Virus record (IMG/VR): IMGVR_UViG_3300030406_000116
Span: 1 to 40,120 of that record
Strand: one strand, 5' to 3'
From: a virus
Length of the DNA stretch: 40,120 nt
Part shown: positions 967 through 40,120 of the stretch, in pieces
Layout of the letters: each line of letters starts with the position of its first letter
How positions within the stretch are numbered: position 1 is the stretch's first letter
Program-made: the position numbers and the translations under genes
The notes under the pieces: generated by a model
The model's input: the letters and a program-made list of their open reading frames with translations, nothing else
What the model was told of the DNA's origin: nothing
The model's database searches: none

Positions 967-1033
967 CTTGTTGTTTGTCTCAGGGTGTCGCCCTGACTGA
1001 TGAGCCGCAGAACGGCGAAACAAACAAACAAGG
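967..1033 (+). ncRNA. Type III hammerhead self-cleaving ribozyme
   Basis: All core residues are present: CTGATGA at 997-1003, GAAA at 1017-1020 and the GTC cleavage triplet at 977-979 (cut after C979). Stem I is TCAGGG (980-985)/CCCTGA (991-996) with loop TGTCG. Stem II is GCCG (1004-1007)/CGGC (1013-1016) with loop CAGAA. Stem III is open-ended: TTGTTTGT (971-978) pairs with ACAAACAA (1020-1027), and with A1028 bulged it can extend via 966-970 into the ribosome site at 1031-1035. Open stem III makes it type III. The downstream message would start at T980 with a 5'-OH. Confidence 0.9.
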
Positions 1034-1482: not shown

Positions 1483-1542
1483 GAGCGAAACAGGGCGGAG
1501 CGTTCCGCCTTGTCTCTAGGTTATGCCTAGACTGATGAGCTC
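1483..1542 (+). ncRNA. Type II hammerhead ribozyme, copy 1
   Basis: A circular permutation of the hammerhead with stem II open: GAGC (1483-1486) pairs with GCTC (1539-1542). Then GAAA (1487-1490); stem III CAGGGCGG (1491-1498)/CCGCCTTG (1505-1512) with loop AGCGTT; T1513 and cleavage residue C1514; stem I TCTAGG (1515-1520)/CCTAGA (1526-1531) with loop TTATG; and core CTGATGA (1532-1538). No core base deviates. It lies just after the gene at 1308, so cleavage leaves a hairpin as that message's 3' end. Confidence 0.92.
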
Positions 1543-2386: not shown

Positions 2387-2435
2387 GACGAAGGCGTGAG
2401 ATTAACACAGACAATCACGCCTTTGTCTTTTTTTT
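2387..2435 (+). terminator. Strong intrinsic terminator before the tRNA
   Basis: A 13-bp stem, 2387-2399 (GACGAAGGCGTGA) with 2415-2427 (TCACGCCTTTGTC), including one G-T pair and a 15-base loop, followed by eight T (2428-2435). It ends the transcript of the 1687-2378 genes two bases before the tRNA starts. The tRNA, the gene at 2539 and the integrase then depend on read-through or on another promoter. Confidence 0.9.
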
Positions 2436-2437
2436 AA

Positions 2438-2511
2438 CTCGCAGTGGCGGAATGGCTACGCAATAGGTTGCAACCCTATGTATACTGGTTCGAGTCCAGT
2501 CTGCGAGTCCA
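2438..2511 (+). tRNA. tRNA-Cys (anticodon GCA)
   Basis: A full 74-base cloverleaf with CCA encoded. The acceptor is CTCGCAG (2438-2444)/CTGCGAG (2501-2507); the anticodon stem is ATAGG/CCTAT with loop TTGCAAC, so the anticodon is GCA; the T arm is ACTGG-TTCGAGT-CCAGT. The discriminator base is T (U73 in RNA), a known identity base of bacterial tRNA-Cys. It lies about 330 bases upstream of the tyrosine integrase, so it may serve as attP for integration into the host tRNA-Cys gene, as a working phage tRNA, or both. Pelagiphages of this type are known to integrate at tRNA genes. Confidence 0.9.
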
Positions 2512-2538: not shown

Positions 2539-2769
2539 ATGATAAGTTATAACAACGTATCAATTAAAGAAGTAAGGACAAGAGAAGGCGAATATAATCA
2601 CAAAAAGAAAAAGCATGTGAAATTCGCAAAACCTAAAGTTACTAAACGAGAGGTGTGTTTTAGTGAGTGGTCTAGCTTAGAAGAGTTAGCGGCTGATGTA
2701 AGACACCATGTAATAAAAAATCCGTATGACGTAATTGAAGTATCTTTTACGGCAACAATGGAAGTATAG
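2539..2769 (+). CDS. Small early protein, unknown
   Basis: A 76-residue soluble, Lys-rich protein preceded by AAAGGAG in a shortened copy of the leader cassette. The N-terminal half is basic (EYNHKKKKHVKFAKPKVTK); the second half predicts alpha-beta (EWSSLEELAADVRHHVIKNP, then VIEVSFTATMEV). It lies between the tRNA and the integrase, where excisionases or directionality factors are often found. The size and basic character would allow that role but no known excisionase motif is visible. The last base of its TAG stop is the first base of the second type II hammerhead. Confidence 0.6.
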   Translation: MISYNNVSIKEVRTREGEYNHKKKKHVKFAKPKVTKREVCFSEWSSLEELAADVRHHVIKNPYDVIEVSFTATMEV

Positions 2770-2824
2770 AACGAAACGCCCTGCAATATGGGCGTCTATG
2801 GTTTAATACCATACTGATGAGTTC
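2769..2824 (+). ncRNA. Type II hammerhead ribozyme, copy 2
   Basis: Stem II is open: GAAC (2769-2772) with GTTC (2821-2824). Then GAAA (2773-2776); stem III CGCCC (2777-2781)/GGGCG (2790-2794) with an 8-base loop; T2795 and cleavage residue C2796; stem I TATGGT (2797-2802)/ACCATA (2808-2813) with loop TTAAT; and core CTGATGA (2814-2820). The core is perfect. The stems differ in sequence from the first type II copy but keep their pairing, which is compensatory evidence for function. It fills the gap between the stop at 2769 and the integrase start. Confidence 0.93.
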
Positions 2825-2842
2825 AGAAACAAAGGAGCAATT

Positions 2843-3628
2843 ATGAAACTTAAACAAGTATACGACAAGCAAGACTGGGAAAAGTGCCAGTCAAAAAGAG
2901 CTCTAGTTGTTATTGACATTGTAGGTAACATTGAGCCAAAGAAAGTAACTGACAAGCATGTAGAAAAAGTTAATGAAACATTAAAAGCTAAAGGACTAAG
3001 CGGTGCTACTATCAATAGGTATTTAGCGGCGTTAAGTAAACTTTTGAAATATGCACATAAAAGATATGACACTTTTAATATGGAGCGTATGCCTCATATT
3101 GAATGGCATAAAGAAACAAAGGGCAGAGTTAGATACATAACAAAAGAGGAAGAGGCTAAAATGATTGAGCTATTAAAGGACTCAGAATATCTGAGCCTTT
3201 ATCTTTTTCTAATGGACACAGGCATGAGATTGTCTGAGGCTTTGTCTTTTACACAAGAGGACATACAATCAGTAAATGGTAAAACTTATATTACTTTGTA
3301 TGGTACAAAAAATGGTGACACTAGAAGCGTACCATTAACTGAACGTGCAACTAAACTAGGTTCTAAAACTTTCCAACATTTAGACTATTGGAAAGCTGAG
3401 AATACTTGGAAGCAGTTGCGTAAAGACATGGGACTAACGAAAGACAAGCAATTTGTTATCCATGCTTTGCGTCATACTTGTGCGTCAAGACTAGCTCAGT
3501 CAGGTAAGATTGAGTTACATATAATAAAAGAGTTATTAGGTCATAGAAGCTATAATACTACGTTGAGATATAGCCATTTTAAACCTAGTAATTTGTTGGG
3601 TGCTGTTGATGTATTAGACAATATATAA
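2843..3628 (+). CDS. int: Tyrosine recombinase (phage integrase)
   Basis: A 261-residue integrase that would catalyse site-specific recombination between attP and a host attB. The N-terminal SAM-like core-binding region covers about residues 1-95 (KGLSGATINRYLAALSKLLK). The catalytic residues are Arg129 (TGMRLSEAL), Lys156 (GTKNGD), His207 and Arg210 (HALRH), His234 (LLGHRS) and the nucleophile Tyr243 (TLRYSH). Start ATG follows AAAGGAG by 5 bases. The gene is immediately preceded by a self-cleaving ribozyme, so its message would carry a 5'-OH and begin 46 bases upstream of the start codon. Phage promoter P3 starts on the last base of its stop. Confidence 0.95.
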   Translation: MKLKQVYDKQDWEKCQSKRALVVIDIVGNIEPKKVTDKHVEKVNETLKAKGLSGATINRYLAALSKLLKYAHKRYDTFNMERMPHIEWHKETKGRVRYITKEEEAKMIELLKDSEYLSLYLFLMDTGMRLSEALSFTQEDIQSVNGKTYITLYGTKNGDTRSVPLTERATKLGSKTFQHLDYWKAENTWKQLRKDMGLTKDKQFVIHALRHTCASRLAQSGKIELHIIKELLGHRSYNTTLRYSHFKPSNLLGAVDVLDNI

Positions 3629-3677: not shown

Positions 3678-6128
3678 ATGACTAAACTATTAGAGATAAT
3701 GCCTACTTTCCCTGACCAGAACCAGAACGAAAAAGACATGGCTGAGTTAGGAAAGCAAAGAACAAATAAACGAAGAGTATCTCACGTTGAGCGTGAGGAA
3801 GAGTCAGTGACTAGCTACGGTAAAGTCATGGTAGCTAATACAATACGACCCTTAGCCAAAAGGATAAAAGACTATCTTGAAGATTGTGCGGAGAAATCTA
3901 AAACCGCAGGGCAACCGCCAGTCGCTTTTATGCACCTATCAGGAGTTGACCCTGAAATATCTGCCCTCATTACAGCCAAACACATAATCAATACAATCAC
4001 CCAGTACAAACCATTGACTGCTACTTGTATTAGTTTGGGTGGTAAGATTGAAACTGAAGAGCAACTTAAAAACTTTCAGTATCTAAACCCTGAACTATAC
4101 GAAGTAGTTAAAATGGATTTAGACAAGAGGTCATGGAACTATGCCTACAAAAGACGTAAGCTGAGAGAGACAGCTAAACGAGGTGAGGTTGCGTGGACTG
4201 AATGGACTACACCACAAAAGCTACATGTTGGTATTAGATTAGTTGAGATGATGATTGAAGCTACAGGTTTAATTGAAATTGGAACTGAAACTATCAATCG
4301 TAAGAAAACTAAGATTATAAAACAAACACAGAAAACAAGAGAGTGGATACAAAACAGGAATAGTTTTAATGAACTATTAAATCCTGAGTATCTGCCTTGT
4401 GTCATGCCGCCTAAGCAATGGTCTGGCGTGAGTGGTGGCGGTTATTGGACAAAGGAACTACCTGAGCTTGACTTAGTTAAACAGCGTAATAAAAAGTTTA
4501 AAGTTGAGCTTGAGAGTTTTAAAATGCCTGAAGTTTATAATGCTGTTAATGTTATGCAGAACTCTGCATTTAAAGTTAATCATTATATACTTGGTGTTAT
4601 GCAGGAAGCGTGGGACAAAGGTTTAGCTTTAGGTGGTATGCCGCCAAATGAAAACCATGACATACCTAACAAGCCGCATGACATAGATACAAACAGAGAA
4701 GCAAGAAAAGAGTGGAAGAAAAAAGCTGTTATTGCACACACAGAAAATGCTCGTATGTTTTCTAAGCGTTTACTGTATGCAAAAATATTGTGGGAAGCAG
4801 ACAAGTTTAAATCATACAAAACTATTTACTTTCCATTGCAATTAGATTTCAGAGGACGTGCTTATTGTGTCCCTGCTTTTCTAAACTATCAGAGCATAAG
4901 TGGAGCTAAGGCTTTACTTAAATTCTCTTATGGTAAAGCAATAACAGAAGAAAACAAAGGTGACTTTTGGTTAGCCGTACATGGTGCAAACATGTGGGGT
5001 AAAGACAAACAGTCATTACAAGACAGAGTTAAGTGGGTTCAACAAAACCAAGACATGATTATTAATTGTGCTCTTGACCCATTTACAAATAGACAATGGG
5101 AAGACGCTTCGTCTCCGTTTCAAGCTCTAGCATTTTGTGAAGAGTGGAGACAATTTAAAGAACAAGGTTATGGCTTTGAGTCTAGTATACCAGTGTCTAT
5201 TGACGGTTCGTGTAACGGTTTGCAGTTATACTCATTGATGTTGAGAGATGAACACGCAGGTAAATTAGTTAATGTTGTACCTGCTGATGAGCCTCAAGAC
5301 ATTTATCAATTAGTAGCTGACGCTGTTACAGAGAAACTAAAAGAGGACGCAAAGGCAGACAAACCATACGCACAAAAATGGTTAGACTATGGAGTGAAGC
5401 GTAGTACAACAAAGAGAAGTATTATGACAATCTGTTATGGGTCAACAAGGTACTCATGCACAGACTTTGTAGTTGAAGATTTGACTAAGCGTAAAGACAA
5501 AGGTGAAATGCACCCATTCATAGATGACGTGTTTAGACCTGCAAGTTATTTAGCAGGTGTTATCTGGGATAGCATTGGTGACAATCTTACAAGTGCTAGA
5601 CTAGGCATGGATTACTTACAAAGCATAGCTCGTCTAGTATCAAAGGAACAGTTACCTATTCATTGGATTACACCAATAGGTTTTCCAGTGTATCAAAGCT
5701 ACCCTGAGATGAAGAGTAAGCGTGTCAAAGCAATGTTAATGGGAGAGGTTATTAAACCTCGTATTAATACTGAGACAGACAAGACTGACAAGTTAAGAAT
5801 GTCTAACGGTATTGCACCTAACCTTGTTCATTCAGTAGACTCAGCATGTATGATGAAGACTGTAAACATAGCATACGAAAGAGGTATTAAAAACTTCTGC
5901 AATGTGCATGACAGCTTCGGAACTACTGCGGCTGATGTAGAAACACTGAGTGCTAGTTTGAAAGAAGCATTTATAGAAATCTTTACCAAGCATGATGTCT
6001 TGAAAGATTTTAGAGATGACGTCTTTCATCAACTACCAGAAGCGTTGCGTTCAAAGTTACCTGAAGTACCTGAAAAGGGTAATTTAGATATTGAGCGTTT
6101 AAGAGATTGCGATTTCTTTTTCGCTTAA
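3678..6128 (+). CDS. Single-subunit T7-type RNA polymerase
   Basis: An 816-residue DNA-directed RNA polymerase (T7 enzyme: 883) that would transcribe the middle and late genes from the seven ATAAAG-type promoters. Catalytic Asp509 lies in motif A (IDGSCNGLQ), Lys579 and Tyr587 in motif B (TTKRSIMTICYGS, the same eight-residue spacing as T7 K631/Y639) and Asp745 in motif C (VHDSFGT). It ends in CDFFFA, matching the FAFA-type foot that closes the T7 active site. The start follows AAAGGAG. The region between motifs A and B is shorter than in T7. Its activity could be modulated by the T7-lysozyme-like protein at 7279. Confidence 0.97.
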   Translation: MTKLLEIMPTFPDQNQNEKDMAELGKQRTNKRRVSHVEREEESVTSYGKVMVANTIRPLAKRIKDYLEDCAEKSKTAGQPPVAFMHLSGVDPEISALITAKHIINTITQYKPLTATCISLGGKIETEEQLKNFQYLNPELYEVVKMDLDKRSWNYAYKRRKLRETAKRGEVAWTEWTTPQKLHVGIRLVEMMIEATGLIEIGTETINRKKTKIIKQTQKTREWIQNRNSFNELLNPEYLPCVMPPKQWSGVSGGGYWTKELPELDLVKQRNKKFKVELESFKMPEVYNAVNVMQNSAFKVNHYILGVMQEAWDKGLALGGMPPNENHDIPNKPHDIDTNREARKEWKKKAVIAHTENARMFSKRLLYAKILWEADKFKSYKTIYFPLQLDFRGRAYCVPAFLNYQSISGAKALLKFSYGKAITEENKGDFWLAVHGANMWGKDKQSLQDRVKWVQQNQDMIINCALDPFTNRQWEDASSPFQALAFCEEWRQFKEQGYGFESSIPVSIDGSCNGLQLYSLMLRDEHAGKLVNVVPADEPQDIYQLVADAVTEKLKEDAKADKPYAQKWLDYGVKRSTTKRSIMTICYGSTRYSCTDFVVEDLTKRKDKGEMHPFIDDVFRPASYLAGVIWDSIGDNLTSARLGMDYLQSIARLVSKEQLPIHWITPIGFPVYQSYPEMKSKRVKAMLMGEVIKPRINTETDKTDKLRMSNGIAPNLVHSVDSACMMKTVNIAYERGIKNFCNVHDSFGTTAADVETLSASLKEAFIEIFTKHDVLKDFRDDVFHQLPEALRSKLPEVPEKGNLDIERLRDCDFFFA

Positions 6129-11936: not shown

Positions 11937-12676
11937 TGAAACGTAAACTATTGATAGACGGTGACATTCTTATTTATAAGATTGCTACTATGAATGAAGT
12001 AGATACACACTGGGGTAATGGTTTGTGGACTTTACATTGTGATGAGAATATTTGTAAAGCTCAGGTAGATAGTACCATTGAAGATTTACTTACAGACCTT
12101 GAAGCAGATAGCTATGTTGTAGCTCTTACAGATACACATAACTTTCGTAAAGATGTACTACCTTCTTACAAAGACAATCGTAAACAAAAGAGAAAGCCTA
12201 TGGTTCTCAATGCTCTTAGAGATTATGTATTACAAGAACACAACGCTGTAATATATAAAGGGCTAGAAGCTGATGATGTCTTAGGCATTATGGCTACTGA
12301 ACCTAGTAATATGGAAAGAGTTATTGTTTCTATAGATAAAGACCTTAAACAAATACCTTCTTTAATTTCTACTGACGGTAAAACAGTACAGAAAATAGAC
12401 AAGAAACAGGCAGACTATTGGTTTATGGTACAAGCTATGGCAGGTGATAGCACTGACGGATATTCAGGCGTTCCTAACGTAGGTGTCAAAACAGCACAGA
12501 AGTTATTAGGTGATAATAATGTTCCCTTATTAGACCTATGGAAGAAAGTTCTGTCTGCCTATGACAAAGCAGGTTATTCTGCTAAAGAAGCCCTACAACA
12601 AGCTAGGGTTGCACATATACTAACACATAAAGACTATAACAAAAAGACAGGTAAAGTTAAACTATGGCGGATATGA
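11936..12676 (+). CDS. 5'-3' exonuclease (T7 gp6-like, FEN fold)
   Basis: A 246-residue protein of the flap-nuclease/exonuclease family (T7 gp6: 300). Metal-binding acidic clusters appear at LLIDGDIL near the N-terminus, EADDVLGIMA in the middle, VSIDKDLKQI, and AGDSTDGYSGVPNVG. The last precedes the helix-hairpin-helix type GVKTAQKLL that grips DNA. YKDNRKQKRK is the basic arch region. It would remove RNA primers and degrade host DNA to nucleotides. Its start overlaps the previous stop by one base. Confidence 0.93.
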   Translation: MKRKLLIDGDILIYKIATMNEVDTHWGNGLWTLHCDENICKAQVDSTIEDLLTDLEADSYVVALTDTHNFRKDVLPSYKDNRKQKRKPMVLNALRDYVLQEHNAVIYKGLEADDVLGIMATEPSNMERVIVSIDKDLKQIPSLISTDGKTVQKIDKKQADYWFMVQAMAGDSTDGYSGVPNVGVKTAQKLLGDNNVPLLDLWKKVLSAYDKAGYSAKEALQQARVAHILTHKDYNKKTGKVKLWRI

Positions 12677-39735: not shown

Positions 39736-40120
39736 TGAAACCACAATGGGAAGAATATCACGAAGAGATAACTAAAGCACACGTTAAATCTGAAGAAGGA
39801 TACAGAGAAGATACTTATAAATGTACCGAAGGACACCTAACAGGTGGCTACGGACATAAGATGTTAGACGGAGAAGTAGCTCCTACCACAAGAGAAGGTT
39901 GGGAAGCTATCTTTAACAAAGACTTTAACACAGCTAAAATAGGTGCAACAGAGCTCGTAGGTAGTAGTCAGAACCTAAGACCACAGGCTTTTGGTATTGT
40001 GATAGAAATGGTGTATCAAATGGGAACATTTGGTGTGTCTAAGTTCAAGAAGTTTCTTTCAGCTCTTAATCAAGAAGAGCCAGACTATGTGGTTGCGTCT
40101 AAGGAGATGTTAGACTCACG
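39735..40120 (+). CDS. Endolysin (GH24 T4-type lysozyme), 5' part
   Basis: The first 128 codons of a 154-residue lysozyme whose end is at bases 1-228. The GH24 signature is present: SEEGYREDTYKCTEGH then LTGGYGH. Aligned to T4 lysozyme, the catalytic Glu11 is Glu21, Thr26 is Thr36, and Asp20 is Cys30. Cys at this position is found in natural phage lysozymes and is tolerated in T4 (D20C), so activity is expected. There is no signal peptide, so release would depend on a holin. Start overlaps the hydrolase stop (TAATG). Confidence 0.93.
   Translation, partial: MKPQWEEYHEEITKAHVKSEEGYREDTYKCTEGHLTGGYGHKMLDGEVAPTTREGWEAIFNKDFNTAKIGATELVGSSQNLRPQAFGIVIEMVYQMGTFGVSKFKKFLSALNQEEPDYVVASKEMLDS
39972..40120 (+). 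repeat. Right copy of the end overlap
   Basis: This is the second copy of bases 1-149, differing only at 40049 (G where position 78 has A). See the left copy. The two alleles of the same silent site suggest that the assembled reads came from more than one genome variant, or one read error. Confidence 0.95.

Follow-up and report, generated by a model that had tools for sequence, protein, structure and literature searches.

A stop-codon-fused type II hammerhead and the early-region placement of hammerhead ribozymes in T7-like SAR11 phages

Why would a self-cleaving ribozyme begin on the last base of one gene's stop codon and end just short of the start codon of a tyrosine integrase gene? The preliminary description of this locus held that the element gates the integrase and so could set the choice between lysis and lysogeny. 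We weigh that reading against the fold of the element, the placement of hammerheads across related phages, and the integrase loci of close relatives.

The window—the whole 40,120-nt stretch analyzed, IMG/VR record IMGVR_UViG_3300030406_000116—is a T7-like temperate SAR11 phage, with HTVC109P (Autographiviridae, Pelagivirus) as the closest isolate. A 149-nt direct repeat (148/149 identical) lies at the ends of the record, which therefore probably represents a complete genome. Its three hammerheads are all upstream of the RNA polymerase (RNAP) gene and on the same strand (Table 1); here and in relatives, two or more hammerheads flank genes on one transcript strand, the arrangement of clustered hammerheads.

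Table 1. Features of the window discussed in the text
Feature	Position	Strand	Basis or remark
Terminal direct repeat	1–149 and 39972–40120		Sequence comparison of the two ends
Type III hammerhead, leader of ORF 1045–1305	971–1027	+	Rfam RF00008, 45.5 bits; own scanner; cleavage predicted after C979
Type II hammerhead, second copy	1483–1542	+	Own scanner; missed by Rfam; cleavage predicted after C1514
Terminator-like hairpin AAGGCGTGA/TCACGCCTT with T run, 5′ of the cassette	2390–2432	+	Read from the sequence
tRNA-Cys (GCA), first part of the cassette	2438–2511	+	Absent from relatives lacking the cassette
76-aa ORF with the ribozyme at its 3′ end	2539–2769	+	Sequence; no assigned function
TAG stop codon of the 76-aa ORF	2767–2769	+	G2769 is also ribozyme base 1
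Type II hammerhead ribozyme	2769–2824	+	Sequence reading, three-topology scanner, Rfam, folding
Predicted self-cleavage site, C2796/U2797	2796–2797	+	Inferred from the hammerhead core
Integrase leader AGAAACAAAGGAGCAATT with Shine–Dalgarno sequence	2825–2842	+	Sequence
Tyrosine integrase	2843–3628	+	Pfam PF00589, E 3e-21; phrog_1
Phage single-subunit RNAP	3678–6128	+	PF00940; phrog_414

Fold and covariation of the type II hammerhead

Read as RNA, 2769–2824 is GAAC-GAA-ACGCCC(UGCAAUAU)GGGCGU-C^-UAUGGU(UUAAU)ACCAUA-CUGAUGA-GUUC. Stem II (4 bp, 2769–2772/2821–2824), stem III (6 bp, 2776–2781/2790–2795), and stem I (6 bp, 2797–2802/2808–2813) surround a core (GAA 2773–2775, C17 = C2796, CUGAUGA 2814–2820) with every base at consensus. 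Loops close stems I and III while stem II is open, and the element has the CUGANGA...GAA core, the A15.1–U16.1 pair, and an H17 other than G that characterize type II. Its fusion to a stop codon, as first described, is exact, with G2769 serving as the final base of the TAG. The 18-nt spacing to the ATG at 2843 likewise stands, with the motif ending at 2824 and not at 2842, which is the base before the ATG.

Searched against 3.1 kb, Rfam model RF02276 matches the element at 31.8 bits (E 8e-4), short of the 37 bits set as its gathering score. That threshold is a curator's cut-off rather than a structural feature of the family, and it is conservative for the pelagiphage group because the perfect-core copy at 1483–1542 goes unmatched altogether. 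Our own scanner, which covers all three hammerhead topologies, gives a score of 41, whereas 100 dinucleotide-shuffled versions of the full 40-kb sequence returned 10 weak matches with a maximum of 26.

The minimum-energy structure predicted for the 56 nt alone is exactly the hammerhead fold. With longer flanks, stems I and III are predicted to be stable and the 4-bp stem II is rivaled by a CUGA/UCAG hairpin; examined as a possible post-cleavage refolding element, UCAG follows the type II core in 21/79 clusters, only a modest bias. Watson–Crick pseudoknots of at least 4 bp between loop I and the 3′ tail are not above chance (4/71 type II clusters versus 9% of shuffled pairs), and the only such pairing in the window copy, GUUU/AAAC, requires the end pairs of stem I to open. 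Cleavage could be slow, given a stem II predicted to be disfavored in context and no loop I/tail pseudoknot above chance. Overall, the element is well formed and unremarkable among the clustered phage hammerheads, a class already known.

Two base preferences accompany the fold. In 51/71 type II clusters a U-G pair at stem I position 7 closes a short loop (GGU...GCC), and in 47/79 stem II is followed directly by an A. Together they possibly mark a tertiary contact that replaces the pseudoknot.

The preliminary description drew selection on the fold from the window's two type II copies, whose stems were said to share no sequence while keeping perfect pairing. The second copy does exist; its stems I and III differ from those at 2769 in sequence and length, but stem II differs by a single pair (GAGC versus GAAC), and two paralogous copies by themselves are weak evidence for selection. 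The conclusion itself is borne out among relatives. Across 72 type II clusters, stem positions are 80–100% paired, against about 40–50% for reshuffled partners at the most variable positions, with at least four pair types per position and a stem II that ends at exactly 4 bp in nearly all members of the set. Since the scanner requires four pairs in stem I, two in stem II, and three in stem III, only the outer pairs count as selection-free evidence: stem III pairs 4–8 are kept at 80–93%, stem I pairs 5–6 at 99–100%, and stem II pairs 3–4 at 97–100%. A comparison of orthologs gives the same answer: the copies at 1483 of the window and 968 of L042, which share the same 3′ sequence, differ by two fully compensated stem I pairs, pointing to compensatory change among type II relatives.

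Placement of hammerheads in the early region

Thirteen complete pelagiphages carry 24 hammerheads of three types, all on the coding strand and all in the early region. In a sample of 80 RNAP-anchored contigs plus isolates, 128 hammerheads fall within the 231 kb that lie at most 5.5 kb ahead of the RNAP gene; the remaining 1,097 kb contain 3, each a leader directly ahead of gp1 at the end of a record. Pelagiphages have about three hammerheads each, and at least one occurs in 38/44 loci for which 2.5 kb or more of sequence precedes RNAP. Some relatives (HTVC120P, Bylgja, L082, L091, L093) have none, so hammerheads are not essential. An Rfam search (E 0.5) for other known ribozymes in hammerhead-free phages returned none in the HTVC120P early region, Bylgja, HTVC121P, or HTVC105P. 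HTVC121P (L005) has a decayed type III remnant at about 640–760, with stems and CTGAAGA kept and the GAAA part broken. A genome scan for SAR11 prophages with the element gave one contig, filed as a Neomarinimicrobiota MAG.

Position between genes depends on topology. Type III hammerheads end 10–26 nt ahead of a start codon, with a median distance of 18 nt and 17/19 clusters at 30 nt or less; no type III cluster has a stop codon 15 nt or less away. Types I and II begin at stop codons, type I often at −4 to +2 and type II at −1 to +13, with medians of 0 and +3. With near-duplicates merged, the association between topology and position has Mann–Whitney p values of 5e-7 to 2e-5; gene models outside annotated phages came from our own simple caller script.

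The same placement recurs in 91 clusters that were not used to notice the rule, drawn from viral contigs by two pattern scans that selected on stem sequence and not on position. Type III lies 7–29 nt 5′ of a start in this second set, type II is commonest at −1 or 0 from a stop, and the exact fusion found in the window, with the last base of the stop as the first base of the ribozyme, appears at least 12 times. Only seven of these clusters are type I, so the type I rule rests mainly on the first set. Order along the operon is also regular: type III precedes types I and II in 56/56 mixed pairs (order permutation p ≤ 1e-4). A strict III–II–I order was rejected, types I and II being interchangeable behind a leading type III. 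In unrelated viral contigs (L177, L181, and L176/L197), 7–10 type II copies each are found, many between a stop and the next start. Open-licence literature on phage ribozymes, polycistronic processing, and pelagiphage transcription yielded no report of pelagiphage hammerheads or of the topology–position rule.

Early RNase III sites in T7 cut the polycistronic early transcript between genes and leave hairpins at mRNA 3′ ends. The location of pelagiphage hammerheads between genes upstream of RNAP, with their predicted cuts, agrees with the position of such T7-type early processing sites; T7 relies on a host protein and has late-region sites as well, whereas pelagiphage hammerheads are early only. 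Taken with the early-only distribution, the hairpin placement fits a model in which the early operon transcript processes itself into mRNAs with capped ends. Ribozymes would fold and cut themselves during transcription, dividing the early RNA into short mRNAs without a host nuclease. A type III cut would make two hairpins the 5′ end of the downstream gene, and a type I cut would leave two hairpins and a cyclic phosphate just past the stop codon of the upstream gene. After a type II cut at a stop, the upstream mRNA would end in a 3′ hairpin, and the downstream one would start with a flush hairpin bearing a 5′-OH. For the copy at 2769, the predicted products match those first described, with stem III as the terminal hairpin of the 5′ product and stem I as the opening hairpin of the 3′ product, the integrase message. 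Each topology would be placed so that the hairpin side of the cut remains with the adjacent gene, and observed positions mostly do set the hairpin beside the gene that the ribozyme touches. Flush hairpins, 5′-OH, and cyclic phosphate should let these ends withstand exonucleases and 5′-end-dependent RNase E; with cleavage and stabilization in the cell, the ribozymes would be functionally equivalent to the T7 early sites.

On this evidence we consider it probable that the hammerhead at 2769–2824 belongs to a self-cleaving set that, in T7-like SAR11 phages, punctuates the polycistronic early RNA. The more specific proposal is an end-capping code, on which we are evenly balanced: position would select topology (III before starts, I/II at stops, III first in the operon) and the folded half would be kept gene-side, giving hairpin-capped mRNAs with 5′-OH/2′,3′-cyclic-phosphate ends made without host nucleases. 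Because HTVC022P (MH598798) has a type I hammerhead at 2297–2359, with its cut predicted between 2353 and 2354, its public RNA-seq can test cleavage; the RNAP, MarR, and integrase genes of that phage belong to a contiguous block of early-expressed genes, with the integrase expressed at 1–2 h (PMC12753301).

Known systems share parts of this picture. The type II family RF02276 (Perreault et al. 2011, PMC3088659) matches the window copy in its permuted fold, catalytic core, and site of cleavage and is likewise phage-borne, often near integrases, and clustered around small genes; the differences are the sub-gathering score here and the near-uniform 4-bp stem II of the pelagiphage set. Clustered phage hammerheads cleave in vitro and in E. 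coli (PMC3088659). Prophage clusters, such as the Agrobacterium, Azorhizobium, and Clostridium scindens triple arrays, likewise combine mixed types around single genes or short blocks, and processing into gene-length mRNAs has been proposed for them (PMC3088659); here the hosts of the elements are T7-like SAR11 phages, the early region alone is occupied, and the topology–position rule was not found stated in that paper. A variant hammerhead in haloviruses HF1/HF2 lies 13 nt before a helicase start in the early section of a lytic virus genome, the place that type III takes in pelagiphages, although that virus is archaeal and the core is a variant (PMC3088659).

A separate motif, AAAGTTCCCATNNTA, occurs at window positions 438, 1631, 3630, and 6134, with weaker matches at 12518, 16115, 30886, and 39183; these plus-strand copies lie ahead of several later genes as well as of early genes and the gene for RNAP. 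Matches number 10 in all versus 1.5 expected, including two minus-strand ones within the terminal repeat. We regard it as a candidate promoter of the phage RNAP.

The early pattern could also reflect recombination. Hammerheads would then be short conserved border sequences at which early-gene cassettes are swapped, with catalysis secondary or lost. Phages that share a hammerhead are often alike on one flank only (191 one-sided pairs among hammerheads at least 80% identical), a lead toward such swapping. Around the copy at 1483, the window resembles L046 and L048 upstream (0.85 and 0.82) and not downstream (0.49), and L019 downstream (0.79) and not upstream (0.58); the integrase-side copy arrived with a cassette. 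Joints of this kind would need conserved sequence, but the stems vary while their pairing stays, and neither topology-specific placement nor restriction to the coding strand of the early region would be explained. We judge joints as the primary role unlikely. A hammerhead may nonetheless serve as a cassette-exchange joint alongside punctuation, both being true together, and the topology and early-region pattern could arise partly from hammerheads merely marking such joints.

The integrase-side copy and its cassette

Apart from the window, only L008, a near-identical contig, has a hammerhead directly before the integrase. None is found before an integrase 100% identical to that of the window (L007) or before those at 92–93% (L010–L012) and 85–86% (L014–L019) identity; phages with the same integrase and no ribozyme, one half of what the preliminary description itself named as telling against gating (the other half being unchanged expression or integration), therefore exist. 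Clean empty sites in L014, L015, and L018 lack the tRNA-Cys, the 76-aa ORF, and the ribozyme alike, and the terminator T-run there abuts AAACAAAGGAGCAATTATG of the integrase leader. Because the terminator joins the leader directly in these three contigs, the tRNA-Cys, ORF, and ribozyme read as a single insertion or deletion of about 390 nt. The hairpin at 2390–2432 is known from reading the sequence and was not among the matches of a pattern scan. The 76-aa ORF has no Pfam family above cut-off and no PHROG; close relatives occur only in L008/L024, with 45% identity in L025 and L026.

Stop fusion is not tied to this gene pair. In HTVC109P the same stem family is joined to the TAG of an unrelated ORF and is not before the integrase; no homology was found between the TAG-fused ORFs of the window and HTVC109P, which makes stop fusion a recurring placement rather than one inherited gene. 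The integrase-less phages HTVC168P, HTVC031P, HTVC142P, and Eistla carry 2–4 hammerheads each. The copy at 2769 thus arrived as part of a cassette with the tRNA-Cys and the 76-aa ORF; in the explanation that we favor, with better-than-even confidence, it fixes where the integrase message begins only as a by-product.

The tRNA-Cys is intact, and L046 also has one, at 1442–1515. It may be the attachment site, by analogy with the related HTVC022P, which integrates at the host tRNA-Cys (PMC12753301).

Could the hammerhead still regulate the integrase, its cut at 2796 setting integrase mRNA stability and hence integration frequency? In the window and L008 it does lie directly 5′ of the integrase leader, and the predicted integrase message would open with a flush 6-bp hairpin. 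Cleavage hardly changes the predicted accessibility of the Shine–Dalgarno sequence (0.77 before, 0.81 after), so any effect on the integrase would act through stability rather than translation. The unaccompanied identical and near-identical integrases, the empty sites, and the hammerheads of phages without an integrase all argue against such a role, as does HTVC022P, whose integrase is expressed early with MarR and RNAP and has no adjoining hammerhead. We reject integrase gating as a general role on the empty sites and the integrase-less carriers, and the lysis–lysogeny claim is likewise not supported; regulation of the integrase by this hammerhead is doubtful indeed, a local effect in the window phage alone being possible.

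Two further readings fare worse. A chance or vestigial, inactive motif could account for the score below the gathering cut-off, and decayed core-like remnants do occur in HTVC121P; the shuffle maximum, the covariation, and the consensus core throughout make it very improbable. RNA ligases that join 5′-OH and 2′,3′-cyclic-phosphate ends exist, the predicted end chemistry would suit them, and several genomes have type III upstream and type I downstream. That paired cuts release such segments for ligation into circular or spliced messages is nevertheless the faintest of the possibilities, spliced or circular products of clustered hammerheads having been sought and none found (Perreault 2011, PMC3088659).

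Clustered phage hammerheads were already known, and the part worth pursuing here is the regularity of placement by topology. A ribozyme beside an integrase should not be read as a lysogeny switch. Ever since hammerheads turned up in large numbers in bacteria and phages, their role has been described as open (PMC3088659, PMC6155905); if true, the end-capping code would be a concrete function for three natural hammerhead topologies in phages. The topology–place rule occurs in some of the ocean's most abundant phages, so that existing RNA-seq (PRJNA1253180) can be used to test the processing idea.
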